Shown in pieces: positions 72 to 19,004 of a stretch of DNA of 23,424 nt. Source of the DNA: a virus. The translations under genes were made by a program, and so were the position numbers. The notes beneath the pieces are model-generated. The model saw only the letters and a list, made by a program, of their open reading frames with translations. It did no database searches and was not told where the DNA came from. How positions within the stretch are numbered: the stretch's first letter is position 1; each line of letters starts with the position of its first letter. The stretch covers positions 1 through 23,424 of the IMG/VR virus record IMGVR_UViG_3300029319_000531; one strand, 5' to 3'.

Positions 72-96
72 AAAACTTTTACTTGTAAAGTTTTTT
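72..96. terminator. Hairpin with flanking T-run, possible bidirectional terminator
   Basis: Arms AAAACTTT (72-79) and AAAGTTTT (87-94) are perfectly complementary, with loop TACTTGT. On the plus strand TTTTTT follows at 91-96. On the minus strand the stem begins right after the TAA of the 140-residue gene and is followed only by a loosely T-rich stretch. It could end transcription of both the minus-strand unit and a gene arriving from the left. Bases 1-94 contain no convincing gene start; a 19-codon plus-strand open frame runs in from the edge and stops at 62. Confidence 0.45.
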
Positions 97-517
97 ATTC
101 TATTTTAAATATTTTCAATATTTTTAAATGGCGAACGTCCAAGTTTCCGTTCGTTGAAAGCATTATAGTTTCTCTATACTTTTCCCAATCGAGCTTAAAG
201 CTTTTGTCAACTTTTCCATCGTTGTCTTGGGCAATCGCCAGATTCAATGCGTTTATCGTATACAAAGTATTCGTCTGCTTTTTTCTATGTACTCTCATGG
301 TAAAAAAAGAGCTTCGTTGAATTCTCTCGTTCTTTGGGATGTGTGCATTGTATGTTATAATTTTCCTATCTTCGTTACCTATCTCTTCGAAAAGAAAAAT
401 ATGATCATTTGTCAATGTAAGGGTCTGGGCTAGCTGCTCTACTTCCTGAAGAATTTCGTCATCCGTTTTTCCATTTATGAAGGATGCCAAAAGCAGGCCC
501 TTTGGTTTGGTGTTCAT
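95..517 (-). CDS. Conserved-looking hypothetical protein, 140 residues
   Basis: I cannot name a family. The ATG at 517 is preceded by TAGAGGTATC. The protein is soluble and basic at its C-terminus. Segments include GLLLASFINGKTDDEILQEV, DHIFLFEEIGNEDRKIITYN, FFTMRVHRKKQTNTLYTINA, a Lys/Asp-rich LDWEKYRETIML and the ending HLKILKIFKIE. The compact alternation of strands and helices suggests a small single-domain protein. It is the last minus-strand gene here and ends against a hairpin. It has its own candidate promoter, so it need not be translated from the tubulin-like transcript. Confidence 0.78.
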   Translation of the reverse strand: MNTKPKGLLLASFINGKTDDEILQEVEQLAQTLTLTNDHIFLFEEIGNEDRKIITYNAHIPKNERIQRSSFFTMRVHRKKQTNTLYTINALNLAIAQDNDGKVDKSFKLDWEKYRETIMLSTNGNLDVRHLKILKIFKIE

Positions 518-557: not shown

Positions 558-1409
558 TTACTGTCCAACTTTCTGAATGTCTTTTGTATATAAAGCGCAA
601 AGAACCATGATGTCATCAAAGGTGGTGGAATGAACGGAGAATCCATTGTTCGACTGTTCTTTGGAAAAATCTTTAGTTTGCTTCTTTATTTCTCTGACAA
701 GTTTGTTGTTTTCCTCTAGTTGTTTTGCCGGGATTCCGTAGTAATAGTGGGCATCTTGCCACTCCTCTAGTGGAAATAGATATTTAACTTCCGCACCTGG
801 GTCAAGAGACGCCACACCAAAAGTTCCAATTCTCGATATATCAGCGGGAACAACCTTGTTGCTCAAAACAGCGTCTGAATTGTTGTAAAAATTTACCATT
901 GCAAAAACGTAGGCAATGAAATTGTTGATGCTTTTTTCATAGTTCTTAATGGATACATCTCCAACCAACTCTTCAATTGTGAGGGCATCTATCAAGAATA
1001 GCCTATCAAATAATCCACTTCGAGCATACTCTTGTAAAATATTAAAAACAATTTTATCATCTCTTTTTTGCTCGCTAGTGCATACTTCTCGGTCTGGCCG
1101 AACATAGGCGACGGTTATGTGAGCATCTTTTATTTGTTCGAGAACGACCAGCGAAATTCCAGTGATTGGTTCTCCGCCGCCAAGTATGAACAGAACTTCA
1201 TCACTTTGCTTTACGCTCCTCAAATAAGCCCCTATCTCATGAGGGTCAGCGGCTTGTTCATATTCCTCTATCGTATTATTTTTTTCTATGCTTAAAGACG
1301 CACGTTCTTTAATATCACTGTTGATTTTGTAGATCCTGTACTCTGGGTAGCTGTGGAATTCTTCTGCGACACCACAACCTCGATCGCCAAGACCAATAAC
1401 CTTAACCAC
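558..1409 (-). CDS. Tubulin/FtsZ-like GTPase homologue, divergent
   Basis: A 283-residue protein. The start MVKVIGLGDRGCGVAEEF matches FtsZ VIGVGGGGxN, followed by YKINSD (FtsZ NTD). Residues 72-86, VLFILGGGEPITGIS, sit where tubulins and FtsZ have the GGGTGTG signature loop; ITVAYVRPD (98-106) matches the strand after it. ADISRIGTFGVASL (189-202) resembles the FtsZ T7 region ADVRTVMSNMG, but the NxDxxD catalytic loop is degenerate: only the last Asp (D190) is kept. It is shorter than FtsZ (about 380) or PhuZ-type tubulins (about 310). GTP binding is plausible, hydrolysis doubtful. Phage tubulins centre or move DNA and capsids; that role here is inference. The start is GTG at 1409, overlapping the polymerase stop by 8 nt, so translation is probably coupled. 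Confidence 0.65.
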   Translation of the reverse strand: MVKVIGLGDRGCGVAEEFHSYPEYRIYKINSDIKERASLSIEKNNTIEEYEQAADPHEIGAYLRSVKQSDEVLFILGGGEPITGISLVVLEQIKDAHITVAYVRPDREVCTSEQKRDDKIVFNILQEYARSGLFDRLFLIDALTIEELVGDVSIKNYEKSINNFIAYVFAMVNFYNNSDAVLSNKVVPADISRIGTFGVASLDPGAEVKYLFPLEEWQDAHYYYGIPAKQLEENNKLVREIKKQTKDFSKEQSNNGFSVHSTTFDDIMVLCALYTKDIQKVGQ

Positions 1410-2616
1410 GATGGATGTCCTTCATCTTGCCTAGATTTTTTCCCTCTGCTACATTTATCCTGAAGGTTCCAAATTTTGTGTTCTGCATAATCTTCTTAAT
1501 CACTGGCAACAGGTGGCGATCTCTCTTGTCCAGATCAATAATAATTGAATCGTGAATAATGGCGCAAATAAAAGACTTTTCAGATCGTTTCTCTAGAAGA
1601 TGATTTATTTTTAACGCTTGTAAGAGAGTAAGCTCCGCTGTCGTTGACTGAACAATGTAATTCAAGGCGTGATGTTGGCTGACATTTTCGATGCGTTTTC
1701 CCAAGGGTGTTACCACAGTTTGACCGTCCCAAAAATCTGTCATTATTTTCTTTTTGTCATAAAACTTCTCAAGGCTTTTAGCGTGCTTCTTTATTTCCGC
1801 AGCCCTGGATCCGTATAGCCAAGCAAAGAAAAACTCTTTTGCCTGTTTTCTGGTGAAGTGGGTTCCAAAAACATTAAGCCGATGAAAGTCATGAACATCA
1901 TCCATTGGCTGCTTTACACCAAGAAGCCCAAGAAGGCAACGAACTTCAGCGCCGTTAAAATCTAGCTCAACAAAGGTGTCATTATTCGGCTTAATCAAAC
2001 CTCTAAAATCTCTGTTAAGAGTTAGGATTGGAAAAGAATTCTTTTTTGTTGATAATCTGCCCGTCTTTGTGCCAAACTGGTCGTAGCGAATATATGGTGA
2101 TGCTGCAAGCAAGCGGTCTTTTTGCCCGTTGGGAACCTTAAGGACTTGCAGAATGCGCTTATCAAGATTCAGCTTTTTAGATGATATGTCATGTAACATT
2201 TTGCACACCTCTAGAAGAAAATCATATCGTTGTGGTCTCTCCACTTTTGTCAGAACATATTCAGTGATCTTGTTCTTAACTTCGCACCACTCTACCAAAA
2301 ATCTTTTCGGGGTCAAATCATAAATGCAATTTTCATTCATATCAACTTTGGCTATCTTAAGAGACCGAACATGAGAATCAAGTTTTCCGGTAGCGTCCTT
2401 CCAGTCATCCATTAAATACTCTGGGACAACCTCTGAAATTTGTTCCCCTTGGAGGTAAAGAGAGGCGTACTCTATGTCTTCTAGGTTTTTTAAGTAGGGA
2501 GCATAGCTCCAAGTTTTTGTTAGATCCGCTGGAAACTCTTCGACGTCAAAGTATAAATTGCCGTTGCGGTAGAAACCTACACACTCGGACTTATCATCCA
2601 TCGTCTGAAACAACAT
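1402..2616 (-). CDS. Family A DNA polymerase, compact, without 3'-5' exonuclease domain
   Basis: A 404-residue polymerase of the Pol I / T7 gp5 type. Visible motifs: TGRLS at 185-189; motif A LDFNGAEVR (218-226) with catalytic D219; motif B RKQAKEFFFAWLYG (256-269) with R256, K260, F264 and Y268; NYIVQSTTAEL (319-329) matching the family's conserved Gln segment; and motif C IHDS (354-357) with D356. Motif C has Ser where most members have Glu. F264 sits where Escherichia coli Pol I has F762. The N-terminal 130 residues are too short for an exonuclease and show no DxE motif, so it probably cannot proofread. The ATG at 2616 follows TTGGAGGCATTTGG. Its last codons overlap the start of the next gene. 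Repair, gap filling or genome replication are all possible. Confidence 0.9.
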   Translation of the reverse strand: MLFQTMDDKSECVGFYRNGNLYFDVEEFPADLTKTWSYAPYLKNLEDIEYASLYLQGEQISEVVPEYLMDDWKDATGKLDSHVRSLKIAKVDMNENCIYDLTPKRFLVEWCEVKNKITEYVLTKVERPQRYDFLLEVCKMLHDISSKKLNLDKRILQVLKVPNGQKDRLLAASPYIRYDQFGTKTGRLSTKKNSFPILTLNRDFRGLIKPNNDTFVELDFNGAEVRCLLGLLGVKQPMDDVHDFHRLNVFGTHFTRKQAKEFFFAWLYGSRAAEIKKHAKSLEKFYDKKKIMTDFWDGQTVVTPLGKRIENVSQHHALNYIVQSTTAELTLLQALKINHLLEKRSEKSFICAIIHDSIIIDLDKRDRHLLPVIKKIMQNTKFGTFRINVAEGKNLGKMKDIHRG

Positions 2617-2632: not shown

Positions 2633-4069
2633 TTATTCTACACCTTGTTTTGACATTGTTAAAGATTCTTGCATCACGGGCATCAAAAGTTGATCATGAA
2701 TAAAGCTCAAGGATTGTATGTATTTGTAATCCATATTCCCTCTTGTTTTATAAAAAATATCCATAAACCTTTTAACGTCGCTCCTCTCTTGTTGGAAGCT
2801 TTTTTTAACTCCAAGCTCGATACTTCGAAACCTATAATACGACAGCAGACCCCACTTGTCCCCAAAGAATCTTTTGAATTCTAGAAGGCTAACTGGTATC
2901 AAATTAATCACGGTTGGGTTTGTTCTTATGCATCCTGCTCGAATTTCCTCTGGGGTGCTAGCTGCCGGAATAACTGTCTGCGGCTTCTTTTCGACGTATG
3001 CGTTGTAAAATTGCACCATGTAAGCGGTTAAGTAATCCATGTCATTACGCCAGGTTTTCTGATATGCGACCCTAAATACTGAACGATAGACTTCTTGAGG
3101 ATCAGAGTCTAAAGTTAAGTTCCCGTAAGCACCATATCCACGAGCATGTCGGACGACACTTTCTAGCCCAGGTATCGAAGAAAACCCATAGGGTTCGGGG
3201 CGAGGTTGCACTGTCTCATTAATATCGTCACAAACAAGGTCTTGATTTTTTGCTTCAAAATTGTCTTGGAACATGGTGACTCCGACCATGTATTCAATCA
3301 TTGGTTTGGAGCCAAGGTCGGCAACGAATCGCCAAGGGGCATTTGGGTCAATTATGAATCCGTACTCTGACGCAATCTGCCGAACACGGGCAAAGTTTCC
3401 GTCATATAAAAACTTTCTTATTTTTTGAAAGTCTTGATCATGCGGGTCGGGAGATATCTCTATGGCCAATCCAGTATTCAATATCGAGCAAAAGGCGCTT
3501 GTCATGTAAGACGAGAAGGTCATGGGCGCTCCTGACTTTGCCGAGAATATTGCAAAGCCGTCTAAACATTGTAAAAAAGATTTAACGCCTGTTATTTTTT
3601 TCCCCCTTTTGACGAGTCTAGGCAAGTAAACTCCAACAAATGAAGGGAACATAGTTTCGATAAGATAGTCATGATACTGTGAAGAGGCGGAACGCCACGC
3701 CTTGAGGACACGAGGATTATAGTACGGACCATCCTTAAATAATATTCCAGTGTTTGACTCATCGGCAATGCGGTCCACAAAGTCTCGCCATGCGTCCGCC
3801 ACAAAATTAATTGCGAGAGCAGTTGTCGGTGAGGATGAGTATCTCAACGCCTTAAGTTGTGATTCTTGGACATAGATTGGCTCGCCCGCTTGGTTAACTC
3901 TGCCGTAAAATTGCTCTCTCCCCCAAAAATTATGTTCATAGTTTAAGTCAAGAGACGGAATAATTGATTCTTTATATTCAAGCCTTTCTTTGAAAGCAAA
4001 AGCCGTTGACGACCTGTTTGTTGCATAAGTGTAAGATTCTAATTGATTGGGCTTCTGCGGTTGTGACAC
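2633..4069 (-). CDS. Hypothetical protein of the baseplate cluster, 478 residues
   Basis: I do not recognise the family. The start is GTG at 4069 with AGGAGAACGGACCA upstream, nearly identical to the ribosome binding site of the gp53-like gene. The protein is aromatic- and Arg-rich without membrane segments. Notable blocks are LNYEHNFWGREQFYGRVNQA (residues about 42-61), TTALAINFVADAWRDFVDRI, YGFIIDPNAPWRFVADLGSK, a segment with YLTAYMVQFYNAYVEKK, and a basic helical C-terminus around QQERSDVKRFMDIFYKTRGN. The gene lies 12 nt after the baseplate gene and 16 nt before the polymerase, so it links virion and DNA-metabolism genes. A virion part such as a wedge or tail-associated protein is the simplest guess. 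Confidence 0.7.
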   Translation of the reverse strand: MSQPQKPNQLESYTYATNRSSTAFAFKERLEYKESIIPSLDLNYEHNFWGREQFYGRVNQAGEPIYVQESQLKALRYSSSPTTALAINFVADAWRDFVDRIADESNTGILFKDGPYYNPRVLKAWRSASSQYHDYLIETMFPSFVGVYLPRLVKRGKKITGVKSFLQCLDGFAIFSAKSGAPMTFSSYMTSAFCSILNTGLAIEISPDPHDQDFQKIRKFLYDGNFARVRQIASEYGFIIDPNAPWRFVADLGSKPMIEYMVGVTMFQDNFEAKNQDLVCDDINETVQPRPEPYGFSSIPGLESVVRHARGYGAYGNLTLDSDPQEVYRSVFRVAYQKTWRNDMDYLTAYMVQFYNAYVEKKPQTVIPAASTPEEIRAGCIRTNPTVINLIPVSLLEFKRFFGDKWGLLSYYRFRSIELGVKKSFQQERSDVKRFMDIFYKTRGNMDYKYIQSLSFIHDQLLMPVMQESLTMSKQGVE

Positions 4070-4081
4070 TGGTCCGTTCTC

Positions 4082-6853
4082 CTAGGGTTTTCGAACCGGC
4101 ACAGAGTCGGCTCTCCGTTCAAACATGCAAGTCAACCTTGTTTCAAACTTTCCAGATCTTATCACGTTGTCTGACTTAACGACTTTATAATAACCCCCGA
4201 GACCAAGTTGCGCACCGATCTCTCGCCCGAAGGCAAAATCGGCGTTAACATAAATTACGTTCCCATTCCTAAATATACAATTACCAACCATGGTTAATTC
4301 TACATCCTGTGGCAAGATGAGAGCCATTCCGGTTGAATTGTTTTCTATATGCATAGCCCTTAAAAATGGCATCTTTTTCTCGGAAAAGGAATATGTCTTC
4401 ACTAATCCTCTATCGCTTCCCAAAACTAGGTGATAAATACCATTAGCCTCATCAACCAACTTGCTGCCAATTTTATCTTTATCTACTTGTCCCGCAACAA
4501 TTACAAGGTAATAATTTTGAGCGTTTCTTATGCTATCTATTCTTCTTCCTTGGGCTGATTTTTGACTGGGAAACACCTTTCTCAACGCTGTTATGTTGGG
4601 AATATACCCTGGCACGGGCCAGTTTCTGCTGTGGCTAACTAAATCTTTGACATTATAAGGAGAAGTAAGACTTGTCATCTCAAAAACAATTCTATTATCA
4701 TCCTCTGCGGACAAGACTGTCTGGTTTAAAACCGGAGCAACCAACTTGTTCAAGAGTCTATCTATAAAATTTCGGAACGACATTTGTGTTACCTTGGGCC
4801 CTGAAATATTCTCCACAAACCACTGCGTAAAGTGCTCTAGCGAAATTGGCAAAGAAGCTATGGGGATAGAGGCCCCTTCTGGAATTTTAGATGCCTGCCA
4901 AGTTGACGGTATAATGCTTCCTAGTAAAACGTCAGAACTAAATCCCGGAATTCTATCAACGCCATTGAGGGCGCACCCTATAATATCGCCCAAGCGAACA
5001 TAATATATAAACCTTTCGTTATCGTCAGGTGTGTAAATTCGTGTCTGCTGTAAACCTTCGGGTGTGTTTGCGACGCCAGTGTCGGAAGTTCCTGGGTCCA
5101 GAATTTTGACATCGGCCGAGTCTTCTGTATAGTCTATAGGATTATCGGGATCAGCAAATCTCTCCAAAGCGGTCCTAAAGCGGGTCCGAGCATCGGCAAC
5201 ATCCTGACCAGTTACTGGTGACGTCCTTGCGACTACGGCTCGTGGATCATTAATAGATAGTTGCGAGGCTATAGGAGGTCGCTCTGAATCCAATGAAGCA
5301 ATGCGAACAGGGTAATAAAACACCCTCCCTGCACGAAAAATGTAGTCCACAAATTTTGAGTAAAGCCTATTTCTTACTTCATTTTTTACTCGTTTCAAAA
5401 GCCGTTGCGCAACCGAAATCCCTTTTTCTATTTTTTCTGTCAAATCAACATAATTGCTGATAGAGGACTCATACTTATGAATATAGTCTAGATACTTCTT
5501 TAGTGTTTCAATCTCAAATTCAAGCTCATTCTGCGTGATAGCAAATTGAGCGATGTTTGGAGTTAACCCTTGGGCGAAAGCATCATAAGCAGCCTTGGAT
5601 CTTTCATATAGAGCGATCCCCAAGGGGCCGTCTCTGACCAAGTTCGGGGAGGGATTAAAGACGTCATCAAGGGGAGCAACCCCTAGCTCATCAAAAGAAT
5701 ACGCTGTCTCATGGACATAATCATTATTAAAATATCCGACTTCAAGTAAAACACTAACGTTAACAGGCATATTGGCAGGGTCGGGCGGAGGGCGGTTATT
5801 CGGATTGATCGAAAAGGAGGCGGGGTTGCTATTGTTAAAAATGTTGGAGTAAGTGTCGTCACTATATACTTGATCAAGTGACCCAACATATTCTAGGTCT
5901 AAGACAACCTGTCCTTCCTGTTCAAAATTTAGTCTATAACTTATTAACTGCAAGGCTATAACCTTTTGAGTGGCCTCCACTCCATCCATAAACTTTTTAT
6001 AATCGTCAGATGTCCATCCAGCGTGATTTTTTTTAAGGTTTAGAGGAGCAGACCAACCAATGGCTACCTTCAGTTGGGAATATCCCTTGTGAGACTTTGG
6101 GGCTGGGGTTGGAACCGCCCTGCCGACGGAAGTTTGACCGCTGAACCGCCACGCAGCCTTGAACATCTCTTGAACCTCTTTCCTTTCACTTTCTTTTGTT
6201 TTTTTATTTTTCGGCTTAGGCTTTGATGACAAAGCCTGATCTATCTGGTTTTTGTTTTGGAATATAAATCTTAAAAAAGACTGGTTCAACAATTCTGTGA
6301 CGCTGCCAAAATACAGAGACAAATGTGCTTTAATCGTCCGGTCACCCTGGTGTTTGTTGTCCCATACCCATCGAAACTCCTGAACCCCTACATCTGTTCC
6401 TTTTGTCCCGGCACCCAAAAAGGTGTTGATTTTAGGCTCCGGTTGTAATTTTGCTTTGGCTAGACTCATAACTCTGTCAGAGTCCGTATGGTCACTAAAG
6501 TTAAAAATTTGCTCATCAACTACACCATTTTTGTCGGTTGTAGAAAAAGAGAATTTAAGCTTCGGAGTTAACTGACCTAACATGTCTGTGGGGGCGTTCA
6601 AAAACGGACCAAGAGCATCAGAGTTCGCAGCTACCCCAACCAGAGTTTCAGGTGGTCCGCCATAATTTAAAAGTGCAGACGAACCAGACATTCCGGGGTT
6701 TGTATTAGCACCTACAGGCCTACCTAACCCCCCTATGAATGGCAAGTTGTTAGTTGGTATAAGTGTTGTGACAAGATTCCCAAGGTTCTTTAACAAAATT
6801 GCCTGTGAATTTAACTGCCGAAGTTTTGTTCGTTTTTTAATTTCCTCTGACAC
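4082..6853 (-). CDS. Large baseplate structural protein, possibly hub
   Basis: A 923-residue soluble protein. I recognise no enzymatic motif. The first 110 residues are polar and Gly/Pro/Asn-rich. A beta-rich region (KLKFSFSTT, EFRWVWDNKHQG, TIKAHLSLYFGSVTELLN) follows, then a Lys-rich linker, a further beta region, and a helical segment near 430-500 (LEFEIETLKKYLDYIHKYES). The C-terminal half is mixed, ending VNADFAFGREIGAQLGLGGY and YKVVKSDNVIRSGKFETRL, which looks like an OB or hub-like beta fold. The start is GTG at 6853 with GGAAGG 10 nt upstream. Sitting between gp53-like and another virion-type gene, a hub or baseplate core role is likely. No lysozyme domain is visible. Confidence 0.58.
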   Translation of the reverse strand: MSEEIKKRTKLRQLNSQAILLKNLGNLVTTLIPTNNLPFIGGLGRPVGANTNPGMSGSSALLNYGGPPETLVGVAANSDALGPFLNAPTDMLGQLTPKLKFSFSTTDKNGVVDEQIFNFSDHTDSDRVMSLAKAKLQPEPKINTFLGAGTKGTDVGVQEFRWVWDNKHQGDRTIKAHLSLYFGSVTELLNQSFLRFIFQNKNQIDQALSSKPKPKNKKTKESERKEVQEMFKAAWRFSGQTSVGRAVPTPAPKSHKGYSQLKVAIGWSAPLNLKKNHAGWTSDDYKKFMDGVEATQKVIALQLISYRLNFEQEGQVVLDLEYVGSLDQVYSDDTYSNIFNNSNPASFSINPNNRPPPDPANMPVNVSVLLEVGYFNNDYVHETAYSFDELGVAPLDDVFNPSPNLVRDGPLGIALYERSKAAYDAFAQGLTPNIAQFAITQNELEFEIETLKKYLDYIHKYESSISNYVDLTEKIEKGISVAQRLLKRVKNEVRNRLYSKFVDYIFRAGRVFYYPVRIASLDSERPPIASQLSINDPRAVVARTSPVTGQDVADARTRFRTALERFADPDNPIDYTEDSADVKILDPGTSDTGVANTPEGLQQTRIYTPDDNERFIYYVRLGDIIGCALNGVDRIPGFSSDVLLGSIIPSTWQASKIPEGASIPIASLPISLEHFTQWFVENISGPKVTQMSFRNFIDRLLNKLVAPVLNQTVLSAEDDNRIVFEMTSLTSPYNVKDLVSHSRNWPVPGYIPNITALRKVFPSQKSAQGRRIDSIRNAQNYYLVIVAGQVDKDKIGSKLVDEANGIYHLVLGSDRGLVKTYSFSEKKMPFLRAMHIENNSTGMALILPQDVELTMVGNCIFRNGNVIYVNADFAFGREIGAQLGLGGYYKVVKSDNVIRSGKFETRLTCMFERRADSVPVRKP

Positions 6854-6858
6854 TGTCT

Positions 6859-7215
6859 TTAGCCTTCCTGAACTCTCTCATAAAGATACAAAACCTCCGA
6901 TAAAGGTGTTGGCACATATATTGTCTCACCTACCTCAAAATGAGCCTCTGTTGGTTTCCTATTGAACCAGGCGATAATCCACCAAAGTTCTGGTCTGCCG
7001 TAATATTCATTAGCTATTTTATACAGACGAGTTTCTGACTGCCAGCGATAGGGCGACGTTGAAATATTATCCAGATCATCAACTGTAGGGAACACAGTTT
7101 TATTTGTTGTGTATTGTTCTATTTGGCTAATATCTCTGTCTGTAAAAAAAGTGTCACGATAACCTATGTCATCATTAACTATTATTCTTCTTTTCGAGTA
7201 CCTTGAATATGCCAT
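6859..7215 (-). CDS. gp53: Baseplate wedge protein with LysM-like domain, T4 gp53-like
   Basis: A 118-residue protein. Residues 57-105 have a LysM-like pattern: RWQSETRLYKIANEYYGRPE, LWWIIAWFN, then VGETIYVP. T4 gp53, a wedge protein that joins wedges around the hub, is described as carrying a LysM-like fold; small LysM proteins do the same in other contractile systems. Here LysM probably mediates protein contacts, not peptidoglycan binding. The N-terminal 50 residues are polar. The ATG at 7215 follows AGGAGAACGGGACTA. The next gene starts 5 nt after the stop, suggesting coupled expression of baseplate parts. Confidence 0.72.
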   Translation of the reverse strand: MAYSRYSKRRIIVNDDIGYRDTFFTDRDISQIEQYTTNKTVFPTVDDLDNISTSPYRWQSETRLYKIANEYYGRPELWWIIAWFNRKPTEAHFEVGETIYVPTPLSEVLYLYERVQEG

Positions 7216-7228
7216 TAGTCCCGTTCTC

Positions 7229-8107
7229 CTACTTTAAAGCTTTTTTCTCTTTGTTTTGGCGCACAGGATCCTGACTATTGTTGCCACGGCTGCGAGGTCG
7301 TGGTCGAACCTCATAGCCTTTAGAGGGAGAACCTCTAGTTTTCCCCCCATAAGGGAATCCTTTTTTGCCGGATCGGAGTGTATACATTCCTTCTGCGCCA
7401 ATTTCCCAGCCCATCGGGTGTTCATGTAAGACATTCATTTCAAAGTTCATAATTACATTCCTGGGAAAATATTGCCTGTCGCCGTTTCCTGTCTCTTCTT
7501 CCGTTTCAAGGGTGCCCTGCGCCGCAGGGCTGATAAATCCCGAATCACCGACGGATTGCAGAAAGTTTTGATTTCTGGAAAATACACCCTGCTCCGTAAA
7601 GTCTACGTCCGTTGTAAACCCATTTAGATACCCCAGTAATCCGCCACCCGTTTCAGAATTCTGTATCAAGTTTCCAAACTTAACTCTGACCAAAGGTGCC
7701 ATATTTATTACTGAAGACTCGGTATCTCCACCAGTTGTGTTGGTGTAGACCGGGTACAGGAAGCTTACCAGCTTTCCTATTTCATCTAGGTTTTGCTGCG
7801 CCTGAAGAAAACTTGAGGCTGGTATCTTCCAAGAAACAGCTAGTGCTCTTCGGGTGTGCATGTATGTTGCTATCGGATCCATGCGCCCATAAACCTGCTC
7901 GGCTGACCATTCAGAGTTATAGGCGTCACTAAAGTTCTCTATAAATGCAGAAAATCTAACCTTGTATCCTGTGGGTACATGCTCTATTTGTAAAAAATCA
8001 CCTGCTGCATATAGGGCTTCCTCTTGTGGAAGAGCCCCTTTGAGTCTTGATTTACTAACTGTCCGTCCTTTTGTAGCCCCTCTTCCGGCAAATGGTTTAG
8101 TGCCCAT
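7229..8107 (-). CDS. Baseplate tail-tube initiator/cap protein, T4 gp48/gp54-type
   Basis: A 292-residue protein after the tape measure and before gp53-like. Residues 48-120 include VRFSAFIENFSDAYNSEW, VYGRMDPIATY, ALAVSWKIPA and NLDEIGKLVSFLYPVY. I associate this pattern with tube-like proteins that cap the baseplate hub and nucleate the tube (T4 gp48 and gp54). The last strand block, RNVIMNFEMNVLHEHPMGW, again resembles a tube fold. The C-terminus is Lys/Arg/Gly/Ser-rich and probably disordered. The ATG at 8107 follows GGGGGATCCACGTA. The 63-nt gap upstream holds no clear signal apart from an AT-rich stretch. I cannot tell gp48 from gp54. Confidence 0.62.
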   Translation of the reverse strand: MGTKPFAGRGATKGRTVSKSRLKGALPQEEALYAAGDFLQIEHVPTGYKVRFSAFIENFSDAYNSEWSAEQVYGRMDPIATYMHTRRALAVSWKIPASSFLQAQQNLDEIGKLVSFLYPVYTNTTGGDTESSVINMAPLVRVKFGNLIQNSETGGGLLGYLNGFTTDVDFTEQGVFSRNQNFLQSVGDSGFISPAAQGTLETEEETGNGDRQYFPRNVIMNFEMNVLHEHPMGWEIGAEGMYTLRSGKKGFPYGGKTRGSPSKGYEVRPRPRSRGNNSQDPVRQNKEKKALK

Positions 8108-8170
8108 TACGTGGATCCCCCGCTAGATTTAGTTCAATTATAAGTATCGGATCAAACAAAAAATTTCTAT

Positions 8171-10804
8171 TTAACGGGTGCTTGGACCATTTCTTCTCTT
8201 AACTGCCTCGTTAACCACTTCGCCAAATTCATAATCATAAACTTTAAGAATAACTTTTTCTGTTCTTTGTCCGCCGGGTGCGCCGCCAGCACCGCCGCCG
8301 GCAAGCGATTTAACAGCGTCAGCCAAAGCCTTCATGTTAGCGTTATCTGCGGCTGACATCGAAACGCCGACTTCTGCAATGCTTTTCATCACATTGTCTA
8401 GGGTTTGCAGCTTCGTGTCATCAACCTCTTGGGTCACTGTCATGATTTTAGCTACAGCCTCTAGTCCACTGCCAGCAGCAGCCAACTCGCTCGATGCCTC
8501 ACCGAGAGACATTAGCATAGCGGCGAGTGCGCCGATCGCCAAGAAAGCAGCAAGTCCTCCGATACCGCCAGCCATAGCTGCAAACAATATTCCCAAAGAT
8601 AAAGTAATTGCTGTTATGCCCATAGCTAATCCATAGAATCCGCCACTCACTTCTAGTAGCATACCTCCTCGAAGTTGCCCCAACTGTTCAACAAGCCCAG
8701 TGAAAGAGTAAACAAGAAGCGCAATACCGGCAGCAGCCAAAGCAACTCCGGCACCTATACCAAGGATTGCTAAACCTAGTGCTCCAATCGGAGCCGCAGC
8801 TACACCAGCCGTAGCAGCAAAAGTTCCAATGGCAGGAATCATAAAATAGAAGGCAGCGGTCAATATACCCATGGCGACAGCAGCACCTACAATTTGTTCT
8901 GTATTAAGTTCGCCAAAACTACTAACCAACAAAGATAAACCTGCGGCAGCGAGTCCGACACCTGCACCAATCAGAAGAATCGCAACACCCAATTGAAGCA
9001 TCCCCTTGGCTGCGCCTTTGGCTGCCTTGCCGGATGCAACGGTTGGTCCAATAGACGCTGATTTAGCTTGGCTTTCTATGCCAATCGCTTTAGTGTTCCC
9101 CATTCGCATATTGACTTCAGCAGCTAATTGTTTCTGGGTTTTAAGGCCTATCGCTTGCTTAAATAACTCTACTGCCGTCGTAGCTTGGAGCGCCATTTGA
9201 TAAGCCTTATAAGCATTCACACCAAAGATAACCGCTTTTGCTATCCCCATCACAGCAGCACCAAACATTAATGTATAAGAAACAGCTTTTGTAGCTAAAA
9301 CCTCTGCTATTGTCGAAAGAAGATTAAAAAACGGACCAAACGCTGCAACTAGTCTTTCACCTGCTGCTGTTAATTTTTCAGTAACGGAAACAAACTTCTC
9401 TCTCCGCTCATTCGCAAGGGCCTGCTCTTTGTTGTACGCTTCTAAATCTTCTGGGTCCCCCAAGAGTCGGGCAGCGGTACCAACCGGGACACCCATCATT
9501 TGGGCTATGGCTTGCTGCTCTCTTCGGTGCAAGTCTTCAAACTTTTTACCGAGCCCATCGGCGAGACCCATGCCTTCTCTTATCCCTTGTGTCAGCATCT
9601 CCAATCGTTCTTCGTCAGTCGCAGCCATCAACTCAACAGAATTCAATTGGATGCCCAATTGTGCGTTGATTGTACCAATCATTTGGGCTGATCCCTCAAA
9701 GGTGTCAAGCTGGTCTGTAATATCAAAAGCTTCCTGAACTGACACGCCAAGACTTCTGGCCTGTTTTGCTAGTCCTTTAAATATTTTTGTGGCGTCCTTG
9801 CCATATTTAGCGAGCGAAGGCGCTAATTTATTAAAATCTGCGACTACTTGTCCCGTTGGGAGTTTCAATGATTTTCCTAGACTAATAAACTCTTTGCTGG
9901 TTGCTATTGCCTGTTTGTCCGTGTGACCCATTGTTCGCATTAAGTTGTCTAATGCGGTGCCAAACTCTCCAGAATCTACCCCAAGATTCTTCATCTCTTG
10001 TGCAGTGTCCATCAGGGATTGAGCAAACTCACCATCCATAACCTTGCTAAAAGTTGTCATAGTCCCAACAAGACTAGTCAATATTTCTGCGTTGTCAGCC
10101 ATCGATAGACCGAAATCAGCACCATCGATAGTCATCTGCCTCAATGGTTCGGCTAATTGATCAGCCATGCCTGTTGACCTGGCAAGGCTTACCTGTGCTT
10201 GATCAAGTGCAGTGCTCATCTTAAAGCCGGCTTGCGCCATGCTGGCAAATCCGCCGGCGAACGCACTAAACTGTCCCCCAGTTCCAACATCTGCCACGGC
10301 TTGTGCAGCAGAACCAAGAGCCTTCATGTTCGCTACAGAGTCGGCGATTGCCTCCTCAATCTGACGCTGGTACTCGGCTATTGCTTTTTGTTTGTCGGCG
10401 ACGTCCCCCTGGACATCTGCGAGTTCACGACTTTTTACAACAGCTTCTCGTCTTGCTTCTAGCTCTTCGTCGAGAAGTGGAAGTATTTCTTCAGCTTCTT
10501 CCTTTTTTAGGTCAACTCTCTTCTTTAGTTCGTCATAAATTTCCTGATTGGCTTGTAATTCCTCATCATCTTTGGAATTTATGACATCTTTTTGTGCCGC
10601 TATGAGCTGTTGTAAGCTCTCATTATCTTTAAGGGCTTTATTTTTCTTGAGGGCGGCATTTAAAGCTTTTGTTTCTTCCGCAGCAGCCTGCTGGGCTATT
10701 TTTAGTTCCTCGGCTTTAAGCTTAACAACCTCCTGAAGAGCTTTGACTTGCTCTTCAGTTATAGGCTCCGGTGCTGATGGTGGTTTATTTTCGTCTTCAG
10801 CCAC
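8171..10804 (-). CDS. Tape measure protein
   Basis: An 877-residue protein with tape-measure organisation. Residues 15-165 are Lys/Glu/Ala-rich coiled coil. A helical region with a segment around MDTAQEMKNLGVDSGEFGTA follows. From about 480 to 780 there are several long hydrophobic Ala/Gly/Leu/Ile segments (for example VAILLIGAGVGLAAAGLSLL), typical of tape measures that enter the host membrane on ejection. The C-terminus is short and basic. At about 0.15 nm per residue the length implies a tail near 130 nm; that is a family rule, not a measurement. The start is GTG at 10804 with GAGGTAAATAA before it. It lies in the usual place after the tail-chaperone pair and before baseplate genes. Confidence 0.88.
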   Translation of the reverse strand: MAEDENKPPSAPEPITEEQVKALQEVVKLKAEELKIAQQAAAEETKALNAALKKNKALKDNESLQQLIAAQKDVINSKDDEELQANQEIYDELKKRVDLKKEEAEEILPLLDEELEARREAVVKSRELADVQGDVADKQKAIAEYQRQIEEAIADSVANMKALGSAAQAVADVGTGGQFSAFAGGFASMAQAGFKMSTALDQAQVSLARSTGMADQLAEPLRQMTIDGADFGLSMADNAEILTSLVGTMTTFSKVMDGEFAQSLMDTAQEMKNLGVDSGEFGTALDNLMRTMGHTDKQAIATSKEFISLGKSLKLPTGQVVADFNKLAPSLAKYGKDATKIFKGLAKQARSLGVSVQEAFDITDQLDTFEGSAQMIGTINAQLGIQLNSVELMAATDEERLEMLTQGIREGMGLADGLGKKFEDLHRREQQAIAQMMGVPVGTAARLLGDPEDLEAYNKEQALANERREKFVSVTEKLTAAGERLVAAFGPFFNLLSTIAEVLATKAVSYTLMFGAAVMGIAKAVIFGVNAYKAYQMALQATTAVELFKQAIGLKTQKQLAAEVNMRMGNTKAIGIESQAKSASIGPTVASGKAAKGAAKGMLQLGVAILLIGAGVGLAAAGLSLLVSSFGELNTEQIVGAAVAMGILTAAFYFMIPAIGTFAATAGVAAAPIGALGLAILGIGAGVALAAAGIALLVYSFTGLVEQLGQLRGGMLLEVSGGFYGLAMGITAITLSLGILFAAMAGGIGGLAAFLAIGALAAMLMSLGEASSELAAAGSGLEAVAKIMTVTQEVDDTKLQTLDNVMKSIAEVGVSMSAADNANMKALADAVKSLAGGGAGGAPGGQRTEKVILKVYDYEFGEVVNEAVKRRNGPSTR

Positions 10805-10813
10805 TTATTTACC

Positions 10814-11152
10814 TCAAGGGTTGCGTATTGGCCAGTTAATACCGGCTTCCCTCTCAAATCTCTTGATTGCAACATCAAGCTTCGCTTTTTGCTTATATGT
10901 CATAGGATCATCAAGACCGTATTTTTTAATATAGGACATATAACGCTTTTCATTAACAAGGGCATCCGTAAAACGCTGGACCTCTATCCTGTTCCCTCTT
11001 ACTTTTACAGGTATTCTACGTCCTTTGAACATCTTGGACAAAAGGTATTCAATCCATGCAGCAAAAACATGCAAAATGTTTTCATTAAGCTGTCCCTTTC
11101 GAGCAGCACCTAAATCAAATACTATCTCTTTTAGTTGTTCTTCTGTCAACAT
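10814..11152 (-). CDS. Hypothetical protein upstream of the tape measure, 112 residues
   Basis: I do not recognise a family. The ATG at 11150-11152 is preferred; a longer version would need a TTG start at 11179 and add a Cys-rich leader that looks untranslated. The ribosome binding site is weak (GGGGG, 11 nt away). The protein is basic and mostly helical: LTEEQLKEIVFDLGAARKGQ, then an amphipathic helix ILHVFAAWIEYLLSKMF, then KRYMSYIKKYGLDDP and KAKLDVAIKRFE. Its place between the chaperone pair and the tape measure suggests a tail-assembly role, for instance binding the tape measure. Nothing in the sequence proves this. Confidence 0.75.
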   Translation of the reverse strand: MLTEEQLKEIVFDLGAARKGQLNENILHVFAAWIEYLLSKMFKGRRIPVKVRGNRIEVQRFTDALVNEKRYMSYIKKYGLDDPMTYKQKAKLDVAIKRFEREAGINWPIRNP

Positions 11153-11189
11153 AAGCTTACAACCCCCGTCGTCACACAACTGTGCTTAA

Positions 11190-11197
11190 TAAGTAGT
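11190..11197 (-). promoter_or_regulatory. Variant of the ACTATTTA element (ACTACTTA)
   Basis: One-mismatch copy on the minus strand in the gap before the 112-residue gene, 37 nt upstream of its ATG. Spacing and orientation match the perfect copies, but a single mismatch in an 8-mer is weak evidence alone. Confidence 0.25.
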
Positions 11198-11220
11198 TTT
11201 TAGTTTATGTTTCTCAACTT

Positions 11221-11436
11221 TTAGCGGCGGCTTTTGGATTTTGCTTTTCGCACCGCTTCTTCGTGAGCTTCTTTTTCTTTTTCTTTTTGGTCGATGAGTC
11301 TCTGCAAAAACCATCTTCGTATCACCACGGGAAGGTTATAAGCCTCAAAGAAGCTCCAACCGCCATGGTACTTTAATGCAAAAAATTCTTCATAAACAGA
11401 GGCGATGTATTCGTCACCGAGGCCATAGAAAGTCAC
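11221..11436 (-). CDS. Overlapping second frame of the tail-assembly pair
   Basis: The open frame can be extended to 11487 and contains no ATG at all. The best independent start is a GTG at 11434-11436 (71 residues), with GGAGG 12 nt upstream, longer than ideal spacing. The core, GDEYIASVYEEFFALKYHGG and WSFFEAYNLPVVIRRWFLQR, looks like a genuine compact helical domain; the tail is Lys/Glu/Arg-rich. It overlaps the gp26-type gene and lies +1 relative to it. A +1 shift near 11426-11431 or at the CGG TGA end would fuse this domain to the zinc-ribbon protein. Position and architecture resemble the G/GT-type tail-assembly chaperones that precede tape-measure genes. The domain is real coding sequence in my judgement; its way of expression is uncertain. 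Confidence 0.6.
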   Translation of the reverse strand: MTFYGLGDEYIASVYEEFFALKYHGGWSFFEAYNLPVVIRRWFLQRLIDQKEKEKEAHEEAVRKAKSKSRR

Positions 11437-12277
11437 TTGTGAGCGGAACCTCCATGTCCGCTGTGTAAGTGCATGTTGAACATTCAAAAGTCTGATTCAT
11501 GTCAACATTTGGTGAAACCTCGGAAAAAACCTTTCTTAAATATCTTGCATCTCGGGCAGGCATCTGCTGGACAAATGCTGCTACAGCAAGAGAGCCCTCT
11601 TGACCATTGACTGACTTTATAATAAGTCGAAGCTGATCAGTAAATAAAGAGCTTTCTTTCTTTTTAGCGTTGCGTTTAGAGTTCTTAAACACCTTGTTTT
11701 CATCTGCTCCGGTAAGAAGGCGGCATTCGACTTCAGCCTTACTAAAAGGCAGACTAACTGTGAAGGTATTTCTCTCGCTTATTGTTACGCCATGTTCCTG
11801 CATCTTTTCTTCGAAATCGGAATAATCCAAATCAGATAAGTCGAAAATGTGCTTACCAGTAGTTCCACAAGCAGGGCAGGTAACGGAGGTCTCATACTCC
11901 TCTCCATATCCTGTGATTCTACTGGCTATAACAAGAGCGTTTTTATCCCCAACTAAAAGATCTGTTATTTTTATTCTTTTGTCTACCATCAGGCTCTGTA
12001 AGGCTCTGTCAACCGCCAGTCCTTCCTTCAGAAGGGCTTGAGAAGTTAATATGTCCTCTTCTTTTGCTGTCATATATCTGATCTCCACAGTCTCTTGCTT
12101 GTGGAGCGGGTGGCCCTCTGGATAAAACAGTCCACGGGATGGTAAAGGAACCACCTCCGTCGGCACCGACCAGTTAAATTGTGTTGTAGTATTGTCCTGT
12201 TCCGCTACAGGAACAGGGATACCCGAACCTTCGTGAGAAACTTCGGGCAATCCCATTCTTCCATCATTTCTATTCAT
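11414..12277 (-). CDS. Zinc-ribbon baseplate/tail assembly protein, T4 gp26-type
   Basis: A 287-residue protein. After a low-complexity start, residues 40-132 carry the block I associate with the T4 baseplate (gp26-type) family: VPLPSRGLFYPEG, RYMTAKEEDILTS, LLVGDKNALVIASRITGYG. Two Cys pairs, C134/C137 (CPACG) and C266/C269 (CSTC), should form a split zinc ribbon. Between them is a charged helical region. It sits between tube and tape measure, where tail-assembly chaperones are usually found. Its last 23 codons overlap a second frame (11221-11436), as in phage chaperone pairs linked by frameshifting. The ATG at 12277 is preceded by AGAAAGG with a T-run as spacer. The family name is moderately sure; hub component versus assembly chaperone is open. 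Confidence 0.65.
   Translation of the reverse strand: MNRNDGRMGLPEVSHEGSGIPVPVAEQDNTTTQFNWSVPTEVVPLPSRGLFYPEGHPLHKQETVEIRYMTAKEEDILTSQALLKEGLAVDRALQSLMVDKRIKITDLLVGDKNALVIASRITGYGEEYETSVTCPACGTTGKHIFDLSDLDYSDFEEKMQEHGVTISERNTFTVSLPFSKAEVECRLLTGADENKVFKNSKRNAKKKESSLFTDQLRLIIKSVNGQEGSLAVAAFVQQMPARDARYLRKVFSEVSPNVDMNQTFECSTCTYTADMEVPLTSDFLWPR
11426..11431 (-). other. Candidate +1 frameshift site TTT CTA
   Basis: Four codons before the stop of the gp26-type gene the minus strand reads TTT CTA. A peptidyl tRNA-Phe on TTT can re-pair on TTC after a +1 slip, and CTA is often a slowly decoded Leu codon. The slip would lead straight into the frame of the following gene. This is inference from sequence only. 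Confidence 0.3.
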
Positions 12278-12295
12278 CTAAAAAAACCTTTCTAT

Positions 12296-12318
12296 AGGGA
12301 TGTTATCATAACACCCCT
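12296..12318 (-). other. Inverted repeat upstream of the gp26-like gene
   Basis: AGGG-TGTTAT and ATAACA-CCCT form a near-perfect dyad around a single central base, with one internal mismatch, in the 57-nt gap between tube and the gp26-like gene. On the minus strand it is followed by AGAAAGG and a run of seven T just before the ATG. It could be a weak terminator or attenuator, or a translational operator. The sequence cannot separate these. Confidence 0.45.
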
Positions 12319-12334
12319 AAAGTGTTTAGTATTG

Positions 12335-12904
12335 TTATATCCTACGTTTCGCCACCACGTCGGTTAAGGTTGTGCTGTTACCTTTTGCCGTTTCACACTT
12401 GGCGTAATCATAGGCTATTTCGACCGAAATCTCTTGCATGTCGTCGGACGAATAATCAAGAGTTCCACCAAAATCAATGCTTACCAGAAAGGGATTTTGA
12501 AGTGTCCACTTCTCAATCGTTCTACCATCAGCATCGGTTGACACTATCGAGCATCCCTGAAGGGCTGCCATGGCTTTCTGTTTACTCATGGTTTGGCGAG
12601 CGTTAGATGTCTCGGGATATTCGTACCCACTTCCAAGCAAAATACTAAGGAACTCTCCGGCAAGATCAGGGTCCACTGGATCAACCAAGGTTAAACTAAT
12701 GTTATCCCATGTAACTCTTCCTGGGTATTTAAAGGTGTAGTCCAAAAACTGATGTTCTACCACGCTTACATTTGCTTTGGGTTTACTTGCAGTTTTAATA
12801 TACCACAGAGGGACATTTTCTCCTCCCACGTTAACTTCAAACCTAAACTGGCGTTTCGGGTCGGATGCTTTTTGAGTAAACCAAACATTTTTTGTTTGTG
12901 CCAT
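12335..12904 (-). CDS. gp19: Tail tube protein, T4 gp19-like
   Basis: A 189-residue protein directly after the sheath gene. It fits the phage tail tube family: RQFRFEVNVGG at the start, a segment ending in VEHQFLDYTFKYPGRVTWDNI, SLTLVDPVDPD, and a late beta hairpin SIDFGGTLDYSSDDMQEISVEIAYDYA. Its size is close to T4 gp19 (163). Hexameric rings of this protein stack on the baseplate tube initiator and form the channel for DNA. The ATG at 12904 follows ACGGAGACCGCATAAG. Confidence 0.9.
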   Translation of the reverse strand: MAQTKNVWFTQKASDPKRQFRFEVNVGGENVPLWYIKTASKPKANVSVVEHQFLDYTFKYPGRVTWDNISLTLVDPVDPDLAGEFLSILLGSGYEYPETSNARQTMSKQKAMAALQGCSIVSTDADGRTIEKWTLQNPFLVSIDFGGTLDYSSDDMQEISVEIAYDYAKCETAKGNSTTLTDVVAKRRI

Positions 12905-12927
12905 CTTATGCGGTCTCCGTTATGTTA

Positions 12928-12935
12928 TAAATAGT
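12928..12935 (-). promoter_or_regulatory. Candidate late-promoter element ACTATTTA (copy 6)
   Basis: Minus-strand ACTATTTA between the sheath and tube genes, 23 nt before the tube ATG. It overlaps the last bases of a perfect 12-nt palindrome, GTTTCATGAAAC (12934-12945). This would give the tube gene its own transcript, useful because tube is needed in high copy. Confidence 0.5.
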
Positions 12936-12950
12936 TTCATGAAACATTTT

Positions 12951-15900
12951 TTAGTCCTCGAAAGCCGCACCGCTGTTTGTCACAACGAAATCAATGGCAA
13001 AGAACTCAACAGACTTGGTTGGCTTCACAAGCAACTTGGCATAGATAATGTTGCGGTCAACCAAATCAGGCGTCGTTGTTGACTCATCTAAAATAAGTCG
13101 GAAAGCATCGATACCGTACTGTGACTTCACCTCTTCAAGGATTGGCTTCGCTTGCGAGATAAAGTTGTTCCAAGTGTCTCTGGTATTTTGCTCAAAGAGA
13201 AGTCGAGATGCGATGAACGATATCTCTCTCTTGAGGAAAATCATCAGACGGCGGACATTGATACGATCAAGGGCGGACCTTGTTTGTTGCAGTGTCTTCT
13301 GTCCAAACACCACGATACCCTCTGCTGGGAACTTGGCAATCGGATTGATGCCAACCTCATACAGGCGATCTCGGTCGTCTTGAGTTAGTCTCTTCGAGAC
13401 ATCAAGAACCGGGACACCACCTGCGCCTTCCGAGAGTCCACCTCTTTGGAAGCCTGCGGGTGCGTACCACGGGAACTTCTCTCTATCCGTTGTCGAAAGG
13501 ACACCAAGTGCCACAATCGACGGCGGAGCCCAAAGTGTTCTCTGGCTTGTAGGCTCTTGGATTCTCACCCAAGGGGCATACGTTGCGCCGTAACTTGTGT
13601 TCAAGTTTCGATCACGCAGGTTTTCCACAGCTTCAGAAATCGTAAAGGCGTTTCGGTCTGCTGCGCTTTCTGTGTTTTCAGTTTGAGGCGTGTAGATCTT
13701 TCTTACGTCTATGATCGCAAGAGCATCTCCACGGTCCTCTACAGTATCCAAAAGATATTTTGTTACTGTTGGCTGAACAATCCCTGGAATAGTTGCCAGG
13801 TTCATTTGTACAACCTCTGGGTCAGAGACCACGTTAATGGCTTGACGCAGAGAGTAAAGCTGATAGCTGTTCTTTGGATTCGTTGCGTCCGTGAAGGTTG
13901 CATTCGAATCACGATAAGGATCAGCCTCGGTAACGTCAAAGCCTTCATACCCACCATGGAGGCAGGTCGTAAAGCGATCAAGTCCTGCGGCCAGCGTTCC
14001 GGTATACGAAGCACTTACGGCTGCTACACTTGTGCCGCCTTGGCGTGAACCACTCATCCAGCGATAGCCTTCAGCGGTTGAACCAGATATATCATCAAGG
14101 GAGAATACCCACGAGATAACAACAGGATCAGATCCACTCAAAGAACTAACACCCTGTCCAGAGCCATCAGTATTACTATAACCCACTCTGAATCCTAGGT
14201 TTGCTTCTTGAATATCATGATCAGTTGAGGCTGGGTTCGATTGTAAGCCCTTAAGTCTTGGGCGAAGCGTATCAATAACACCCGGATCGAATGTTTGATC
14301 TGTCGAGCTACGCCCTGTCCAAGCGCCCCAATAAGTGTTCTTAAGGCTTTTTGGCTCGCCCCAATTGTCTGTTTGTCGAATTGGTAACCCTGGCATCACG
14401 ATCGAAGCCGTATAGATGGAGCCACCATGTAGTCCGCTAGTTCCTGCACCGCCACCGTAGCCTGTGATCATAACTCCTGGCCTGCCGCTGGTATCACTAC
14501 CGCCTGGGTTTCGGTACCCGCCACGTACACCAAATTTGGCAGGAGGTCCACCGTCAACGATAGAAGCCACCACATCGGTACCGGAGACATAAGCCTCATC
14601 GACTGCGGTCGCAGTGGAAGCGAAGAATGGCAACGGATCCGAACCACTAATCAAAGTGACGTTTCTATATTTCAAGGGACCGAAAACACCGAACGGAAGA
14701 AGTTGCTTGGCTGTCGTGCCAGCATCTACGTCCTCATCCATGACTACGTAAACATACTTTGATCGGTTTTCATATTGACCATATGTTCTGTTGCCCTTGA
14801 GGTCAGAGTCATATACTTCATACTTATCACCAATTCTCTTGGCGATATAATCATCATCCGCTGGGTTCAAGGTTAAGTTGTCATATCTTTCAATCACCAC
14901 AGGCACATTGTCTGTGTCCGATAACTTTCTGATAAGAACAGAAAATGTACCGTATTCTTGGAAATCACCCTCTGGTGCTTTAATGTTGGCAATAGACACT
15001 TTAATGCTTTTTTGTGCGTGATCGCCAGGAGTTAATGCCTCAAGGCGGAACAGCTTTTGAGCTAAGTGCGACTGATAGCTAGCATCAGCCCCGAGGTGCT
15101 GCCCAATGAAGAATCCAGTCGTGCCTCTTTGAGCACCATACTGGAAGTCATTTGCCACCTCGTCAGTGTTTTCTCTGTTTCTCAAGGGCAGAATAGCAGC
15201 CTTAAAGAGAGTGTTTCTAATGTTAGCACCCAAGACGCCCATCGATTCACCGGCAGACGAGGAGGCGAGCATTTGCCTTTCAAAACTCTCCCCTAGCCAG
15301 AAGTTTCCGAGACCGAACGTTCCACTAGCTGTGCTTCTCTTGGAGATTGCTGTATTTGTCAAGGTTGGGTTTGTGTTCAGAGCCTTACGAATAAAGTTTC
15401 TTCTATTTGGGTCAAAACTAATTGTAGTTTTAAACTCATTTAGACTGCCTGACAGTTCTTTAACATAAGTTAAGGTGAGATTGCCATCAGAGTCAGACTC
15501 ATACATGGTGCAAGCAGAAGCAGAGAGCCCGATTCCCCCGTTGGAGTCGAGTCGTGCTGCATTAGTTCCACTAGCCAAAGTAGATCCCGAAAGCAAAATC
15601 CTGCCTTCAGTGCAATACAAAATAGCAGCAAGAGCACCCGTTACAGGCTGTCCTGTGGACCCAGTGGTATTACCTAGGGCACCGGAAGGAAACACAAACA
15701 GTCCCCAAGCACCACCTTCAGTAGAATTATTACTTAATGTTCCCGCTTTCCAGCCAGCGAGGCCGGCAGCGTTGGCGCTAGGATCTTGTGTCCCCACCAA
15801 ACGAACATAGGTAAGTGGCGCATTATTTCTTAACCAGGCTTCGGCAGCAATTGCCCCGTAAGTTGGACCAAGAATATTTCCGTCTCGCCAAACATCTCCA

Positions 15901-16112: not shown

Positions 16113-16181
16113 TCTATCTAGGTCTCCTTATTAAGTTAACTATACGGCATATTCATACTAACATCCAGAATACACTACTAA

Positions 16182-16189
16182 TAAATAGT
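16182..16189 (-). promoter_or_regulatory. Candidate late-promoter element ACTATTTA (copy 5)
   Basis: Minus-strand ACTATTTA in the 117-nt gap before the sheath gene, 69 nt upstream of its ATG. It is embedded in a perfect inverted repeat, CTACTA and TAGTAG around TTTAT (16175-16191). The remaining gap holds only the AAGGAGACC ribosome binding site. Confidence 0.5.
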
Positions 16190-16229
16190 AGCCCAAAGTT
16201 CCAAACTCCCTGCTAACATATTCCCATTT

Positions 16230-17610: not shown

Positions 17611-17620
17611 ATCTTGTTAC

Positions 17621-18871: not shown

Positions 18872-18908
18872 ATTAAAATCCTCGGACTTTTATAATAAAC
18901 AGTCTCTT

Positions 18909-18916
18909 TAAATAGT
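18909..18916 (-). promoter_or_regulatory. Candidate late-promoter element ACTATTTA (copy 4)
   Basis: Minus-strand ACTATTTA 20 nt downstream of the capsid terminator and 37 nt before the ATG at 18871. A copy directly after a terminator and before the next unit is the strongest positional argument that the octamer starts transcription. Confidence 0.55.
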
Positions 18917-18935
18917 TTTGTACTGCGCTCTTTTT

Positions 18936-18976
18936 CATACAAAAACAGAAAACCTCGCCACAAGGACGAGGTTCTC
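18936..18976 (-). terminator. Rho-independent terminator after the major capsid gene
   Basis: On the minus strand, 29 nt after the capsid stop codon, a hairpin has the arms AACCTCG and CGAGGTT (18967-18973 and 18951-18957 on the plus strand). Three further pairs follow after one mismatch, with a 9-nt loop, and then TTTTTG. It is placed to end the scaffold-capsid transcript. Confidence 0.75.
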
Positions 18977-19004
18977 TGCGTTGTTATTCAGATTTTTTTA
19001 GCTA

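Follow-up and report, generated by a model that had tools for sequence, protein, structure and literature searches.

A degenerate tubulin-fold gene adjoins DNA polymerase A in a large group of uncultured T4-like phages

Results

The window analysed here spans an entire IMG/VR record (23,424 bases) that is classed as linear; such records are often fragments. A preliminary description of this DNA had reported an open reading frame (ORF) of 283 amino acids with a GTG start on the minus strand (558–1409), and the ORF was present as claimed. On the basis of the ORF reading, its homologues and a predicted structure, we assign this gene to a degenerate tubulin-fold protein. A Shine-Dalgarno-like GAAGGA, read from the sequence (1418–1423, minus strand), lies 8 bases ahead of the GTG. 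The start of the gene shares 8 bases with the ORF for DNA polymerase A (polA; 1402–2616, minus strand), identified by its polymerase domain (PF00476, 54.2 bits). This PolA is 404 amino acids long; the polymerase domain was its sole convincing Pfam match, and no exonuclease domain was matched. Beyond polA lies a conserved virion block (2633–20777, minus strand), delimited by gene order in five records, with the p478 gene at its near end and the major capsid gene (19005–20777) at its far end. On the 3' side of the tubulin-fold gene, a 140-amino-acid ORF (95–517, minus strand) has a 44% identical neighbour in the same place in record G011 and no match in four distant records.

Single-sequence searches with the tubulin-fold protein returned nothing convincing from Pfam, PHROGs, PDB sequences or INPHARED. 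Likewise, single-protein searches of IMG/VR with the tubulin-fold protein, PolA and p478 gave no matches, and INPHARED yielded nothing for two distant family members. The Pfam Tubulin family (PF00091) did not match the window protein, no tubulin family was listed among 16 members tested, and the TubZ-like C-terminal domain (PF22453) was matched neither by this protein nor by the members tested. Relatives were reached via the neighbouring major capsid protein, with 80 loci kept out of 438. Homologues of the tubulin-fold protein were found in 15 of 50 capsid-related viral records (46–53% identity, E 3.8e-89 to 8.2e-104); four of the remaining 35 gave a weak match to another ORF only, and 31 gave none. 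The 15 positive records were exactly those reaching at least 18 kb past the capsid gene, while the other 35 stop short of the expected site.

A profile of close relatives (A1, 16 rows) was then used in IMG/VR, where at least 582 of 600 pattern matches belonged to the tubulin-fold family; 80 loci were kept. The broad alignment (A2, 73 rows) combined the window protein with 7 of the 15 homologues and 65 of the 80 loci after removal of near-duplicates, and was split by row order into 23 close rows (at least 39% identity to the window) and 50 distant rows. Searching PDB sequences with the A1 and A2 profiles returned no tubulin. The homologues in 15 capsid-related records, the profile matches and the conserved polA neighbour together rule out a chance ORF. 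The tubulin-fold gene is a core gene in a large group of uncultured T4-like phages, and its family escapes Pfam, PHROGs and plain sequence search.

Gene order around the locus was conserved. polA lay upstream of the tubulin-fold gene in all 74 readable loci among the 80 taken; in the other six, the gene was within about 400 bases of the DNA start. The two genes overlapped or were separated by at most 50 bases in 48 loci, by a gap of about 300 bases in 21, and by more in five, these gaps being approximate as starts were set by motif. The near-constant gap of about 300 bases (e.g. L124 and L147) points to an additional small gene within a single sub-lineage. Five records of 155–191 kb were collinear for capsid, sheath, tape-measure-like, p478, polA and tubulin-fold genes at capsid identities of 51–71%, with a few small genes not found and one match in G052 out of place. 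The arrangement proposed for the window, in which the gene is coupled to a polymerase and closes a virion operon, is borne out and extends to deep relatives. In a capsid tree, the five long records grouped in a single clade to which RM378, immuto, Mel-JY01 and a 484-kb uncultured phage did not belong; the deeper joins are unsure owing to two long branches. The p478, polA and tubulin-fold genes also adjoin one another on the chromosome of a WOR-3 metagenome-assembled genome (L188; CP070664.1, about 2251213–2254533). No other window proteins were found around that locus within the 160 kb read, and it may be a mis-assembly or a relict.

A second tubulin gene accompanies the first. When 18 records were searched with PF00091, another ORF of 378–389 amino acids scored above the Pfam cut-off in six of them; it also matched PF22453 (TubZ-like_C) over cut-off. 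The model of this canonical partner (pLDDT 88.0) was closest to TubZ (Z 37.6, rmsd 2.8, 339 residues aligned). The partner keeps a GxGxGGG T1 loop, and its signature GVSGGSGGG was found in 63 of 80 members. Its T7 residues D248 and D251 were invariant in the 25 rows of a more diverse partner alignment (A5). Across the 50 capsid records, the partner gene sits 10.1–12.8 kb upstream of the capsid gene. Every one of the 17 records that extend at least 11.4 kb upstream of that gene has it (two copies being cut by a contig end), and none of the 33 shorter ones does. Both the partner and the tubulin-fold protein were encoded in all eight records that span both sites. Mean identity over these eight (28 pairs) fell from 93.6% for the partner through 71.4% for the capsid protein and 60.7% for PolA to 53.9% for the tubulin-fold protein. 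Phages of the window's clade carry a TubZ-like canonical tubulin besides the degenerate one, which is a new observation. For the window's own phage the partner is predicted; the window ends 2.6 kb upstream of its capsid gene. The partner was also seen at 63–67% identity in large viral records lacking the virion block (L386–L402; G072, G075 and G078). Bacillus phage G gp138 (L195), annotated as FtsZ-like, matches the partner profile at E 2.5e-17.

The tubulin-superfamily fold that the preliminary description had read from motifs was upheld by structure prediction and by structural comparison, which agreed on a tubulin-like fold over residues 1–283. An AlphaFold2 model built from A2 (pLDDT 95.7, pTM 0.93) contains the two-domain fold with central helix H7. 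The best 50 PDB rows from Foldseek were all FtsZ (top E 1.2e-13, TM-score 0.73 over the query). An unrelated Rossmann family was looked for as a best match and did not appear among these rows, which rules out a dinucleotide-binding Rossmann protein. VIA-align paired the model with CetZ (3zid_B; Z 25.4, rmsd 3.0, 261 aligned), TubZ (4ei7_B; Z 24.5, rmsd 3.3, 280 aligned), FtsZ (2r6r; Z 23.8, rmsd 3.4, 272 aligned) and eukaryotic and Asgard tubulins (Z about 22); among the matches listed, only tubulin-superfamily structures appeared. Against viral models (BFVD), the strongest match (E 3.9e-11) was to an uncultured-phage protein bearing the name FtsZ; the next six had E values of 1.1e-8 to 3.2e-5, and some of them carry the name tubulin.

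A distant sequence link to the canonical partner was also detected. Comparison of A2 with the partner by hhalign gave 93.7%, and 96.1% over 281 columns with A5. With the A2 profile, partner ORFs from the window's clade matched at E of about 5e-8 to 6e-7, and more distant partners at 2.5e-6 to 9.8e-5; in the reverse direction, the partner profile found tubulin-fold family ORFs at E 8.6e-7 to 4.7e-4. When 379 ORFs from five records were scanned by hhalign, two partners came top and the tubulin-fold members of G054, G053 and G052 took ranks 3–5, with that of G051 16th and that of G011 outside the best 40. The close-relative profile A1 gave 3.6% against the partner alignment A3, and A2 gave 0.3% against E. 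coli FtsZ alone, so the sequence link depends on the broad profile. The fold assignment is independent of it.

To describe individual sites, we named structural elements in both models by what we take to be the usual tubulin scheme. The motifs of the preliminary description (VIGLGDRGC, NSD, GGGEPITG and ADISRIGTFGVASL) occur in the order it gave. The T1 loop (residues 6–13, G-L-G-x-x-G-C-x; 1371–1394, minus strand), aligned across the family and placed by DSSP, is kept family-wide: in A2, G6 and G8 were found in 73 of 73 rows, G11 in 71 and C12 in 72. The T3 region (residues 42–46; 1272–1286, minus strand) is shortened, the stretch from S3 to H3 spanning 5 residues versus 12 in the partner by DSSP of the two models. 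By alignment, the T4-equivalent loop (residues 77–86, GGGEPITGIS; 1152–1181, minus strand) carries an altered tubulin signature. GGGTG(T/S)G is replaced by GGGEPITG in the window and by GxGx(I/V)SG-like segments in distant rows; the loop had been described as a signature with extra residues, and while the alteration stands, simple lengthening does not.

Conservation in the family peaks outside the nucleotide loops, in QEYARSG at the end of helix H5 (residues 126–132; 1014–1034, minus strand), which is near-invariant in the family alignment with a mean top-residue frequency of 0.95, compared with 0.42 in the T7 region. Judging from Rossmann topology, this segment should point away from the nucleotide and toward the T7 side. 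Two further positions align with partner residues N204 and N224, whose equivalents in FtsZ and tubulin we take to be guanine contacts. At the T6 position (residue 142; 984–986, minus strand), equated with N204 by hhalign, the window has Ala; Asn was found in 48 of 50 distant rows and none of the 23 close rows. At the H7 position (residue 162; 924–926, minus strand), aligned with N224, the window has Asn, a residue it shares with 48 of the 50 distant rows and with 3 of the 23 close ones.

In the T7-equivalent stretch (residues 178–193; 831–878, minus strand), the model and alignment show neither the two catalytic aspartates nor helix H8. Asp occupied the first catalytic position (partner D248) in none of the close rows and one of the 50 distant rows, and the second (D251) in 2 of 23 and 3 of 50, respectively. 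This agrees with the earlier reading of a T7 loop lacking Asp; its companion claim, that the first Asn is missing, was only partly right, as Asn stands at residue 184 of the window, in 12 of 23 close rows and in 11 of 50 distant rows. One position beyond the second T7 Asp (residue 190), the window has Asp, and an acidic residue was present in 35 of the 50 distant rows and in 7 of the 23 close ones. DSSP assigned no helix after T7 (H8) or after strand S7 (H9) in the tubulin-fold model; in the partner model, H8 spans residues 249–256 and H9 277–288.

The two tubulin genes are separable. G051 (184 kb), G052 (168 kb) and G054 (155 kb), records which may be incomplete, carry the tubulin-fold gene and gave no canonical tubulin with PF00091, PF13809, the partner profile or hhalign; a phage partner is therefore not a universal target. 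G053 (166 kb) has both genes, its partner being divergent in type and far from the capsid gene. Despite the presence of that partner, its tubulin-fold protein keeps both guanine-contact-like Asn. Among 23 other partner-bearing records, five had a tubulin-fold ORF, 16 matched only the partner itself (several of these being too short to extend to the tubulin-fold site) and two gave nothing. In three long records among those 16 (G072, G075 and G078), none of the window's 21 proteins was found at E 1e-3, so these are other viruses. A strict obligate pair is ruled out by the three long records with no detectable partner and by the tubulin-fold ORF in only 5 of the 23 partner-bearing records. The window's clade combines a close canonical partner with loss of the guanine-contact Asn, a coincidence that, as one evolutionary event, is suggestive only. 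The cultured relatives RM378, immuto and Mel-JY01 had neither tubulin gene at E up to 1.

Discussion

Fold and distant sequence similarity make the window protein, very probably, a virus-specific member of the tubulin/FtsZ superfamily. Since it has lost the T7 aspartates, most of T3, H8 and H9, it should neither hydrolyse GTP nor activate the GTP of a neighbouring subunit by the standard mechanism. The preliminary suggestion of a protein that binds GTP without hydrolysing it fits the wider family better than the window member: the wider family keeps guanine-contact-like residues and would be a candidate for such binding, while the window's clade has largely lost them.

The protofilament interface shared across the superfamily comprises T7, the base of H8 and S9, according to PMC3678025. 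We tentatively favour a function in which the tubulin-fold protein is no ordinary filament former but a non-catalytic end subunit that caps or seeds canonical filaments of the phage or the host. This reading follows from a nucleotide side that is kept and a T7/H8 side that is lost, so that the protein could accept a canonical subunit and could not itself stack onto one. Its top, nucleotide-side face, still tubulin-like, would receive a canonical tubulin by way of the latter's T7 face; its bottom face (T7/H8), being remodelled, would prevent onward stacking. The filaments it caps or seeds might be those of the TubZ-like tubulin that phages of the window's clade themselves encode, or those of host FtsZ in lineages that yielded no phage tubulin. 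As its gene comes immediately after polA and closes the virion block, the protein could tether the ends of filaments where replication or assembly takes place.

Several observations count against an end subunit. Erosion in the window's clade extends to the top face, the nucleotide-binding one. No phage tubulin was detectable in G051, G052 and G054, so that a phage partner cannot be the target in every lineage; conversely, the three long partner-bearing records have neither the tubulin-fold gene nor the virion block. The weak matches of A1 to the partner and of A2 to E. coli FtsZ, and the lack of any tubulin from Pfam or PDB sequence searches, also weigh on this side. A fuller version of the idea is doubtful: a two-tubulin phage system, in which the conserved TubZ-like tubulin would form dynamic filaments and a fast-evolving pseudo-tubulin with a worn pocket would cap or nucleate them and tie their ends to the site of replication or virion assembly, much as a phage version of a gamma-tubulin-like seed.

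Not much less likely than the capping or seeding role, if still unlikely in absolute terms, is an adaptor of replication or virion assembly. Here the tubulin fold would be a scaffold that contacts PolA or a virion protein through its conserved QEYARSG surface, with no filament involved. Such a role is consistent with a gene that follows polA in every readable locus (48 of 74 overlapping or within 50 bases) and closes the virion block in five deep lineages, with a most conserved segment outside the nucleotide loops, and with the three long records that have the gene and no detectable canonical tubulin. The two guanine-contact-like Asn, each kept in 48 of 50 distant rows, would however be needless for a mere scaffold.

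An attack on host division, in which a mimic of an FtsZ subunit poisons host FtsZ filaments, is improbable. FtsZ is among the closest solved structures, and lineages with no phage tubulin would still meet host FtsZ; however, the gene sits with virion genes and polA, and the phage division inhibitors known are usually early genes. We give no better chance to static, non-hydrolysing self-filaments that would organise capsids or genomes like a GTPase-dead PhuZ. The core fold, the conserved T1 loop and the guanine-contact-like Asn of most distant rows accord with polymerisation, but the usual stacking surface of T7 and H8 (PMC3678025) is lost in the model, and the T7 region is poorly conserved (0.42). 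Least probable by far is continued GTP hydrolysis via the displaced acid at residue 190. The window carries Asp there and 35 of the 50 distant rows Asp or Glu, but an acid is found in just 7 of the 23 close rows; in addition, T3 is short, T4 is altered and the window's clade has lost the guanine-contact Asn.

The phage tubulins known are those of jumbo phages and of a few plasmid-like phages. In the present group, a tubulin has apparently shed catalysis and the stacking helix, yet it is kept in every readable genome of the group. The family is a natural case in which to ask how far a tubulin can function once GTP hydrolysis is lost, and by what route capping or seeding subunits arise.

We found no description of this family in the literature searched, a scope that left out most subscription papers and preprints. 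The nearest cultured capsid relatives are the Far-T4 phages RM378, immuto and Mel-JY01, which differ in lacking both tubulin genes; the words tubulin and FtsZ do not occur in the main text of the Far-T4 papers PMC4360716, PMC7198788 and PMC13037479. PhuZ and other jumbo-phage tubulins share a phage-encoded tubulin fold with our protein (e.g. the BFVD match to the tubulin-like protein of Edwardsiella phage pEt-SU, E 1.2e-5). PhuZ carries the T4 signature (PMC10299810) and the catalytic T7 Asp (PMC3678025), whereas both are altered in the tubulin-fold protein, whose gene comes after polA within a T4-like virion block. Jumbo phages have two distinct FtsZ/tubulin representatives according to PMC7824862, and these differ from the present family as far as that text tells.

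TubZ of plasmids and phage c-st has the tubulin fold in common with our protein (Z 24.5), and the canonical partner is TubZ-like; unlike TubZ, the 283-residue protein is without the T7 Asp pair, H8, H9 and the C-terminal helix after S10. FtsZ and CetZ are its best Foldseek and VIA-align matches, from which it departs in its degenerate T7 and T3, the loss of H8 and H9, and the absence of a Pfam match. Two superfamily genes per genome, one of them without the T7 acids, are known from alpha/beta tubulin, BtubA/B and dual-FtsZ systems. In comparison, the phage protein is further reduced, with H8, H9 and the greater part of T3 missing, and either phage gene can occur without the other.
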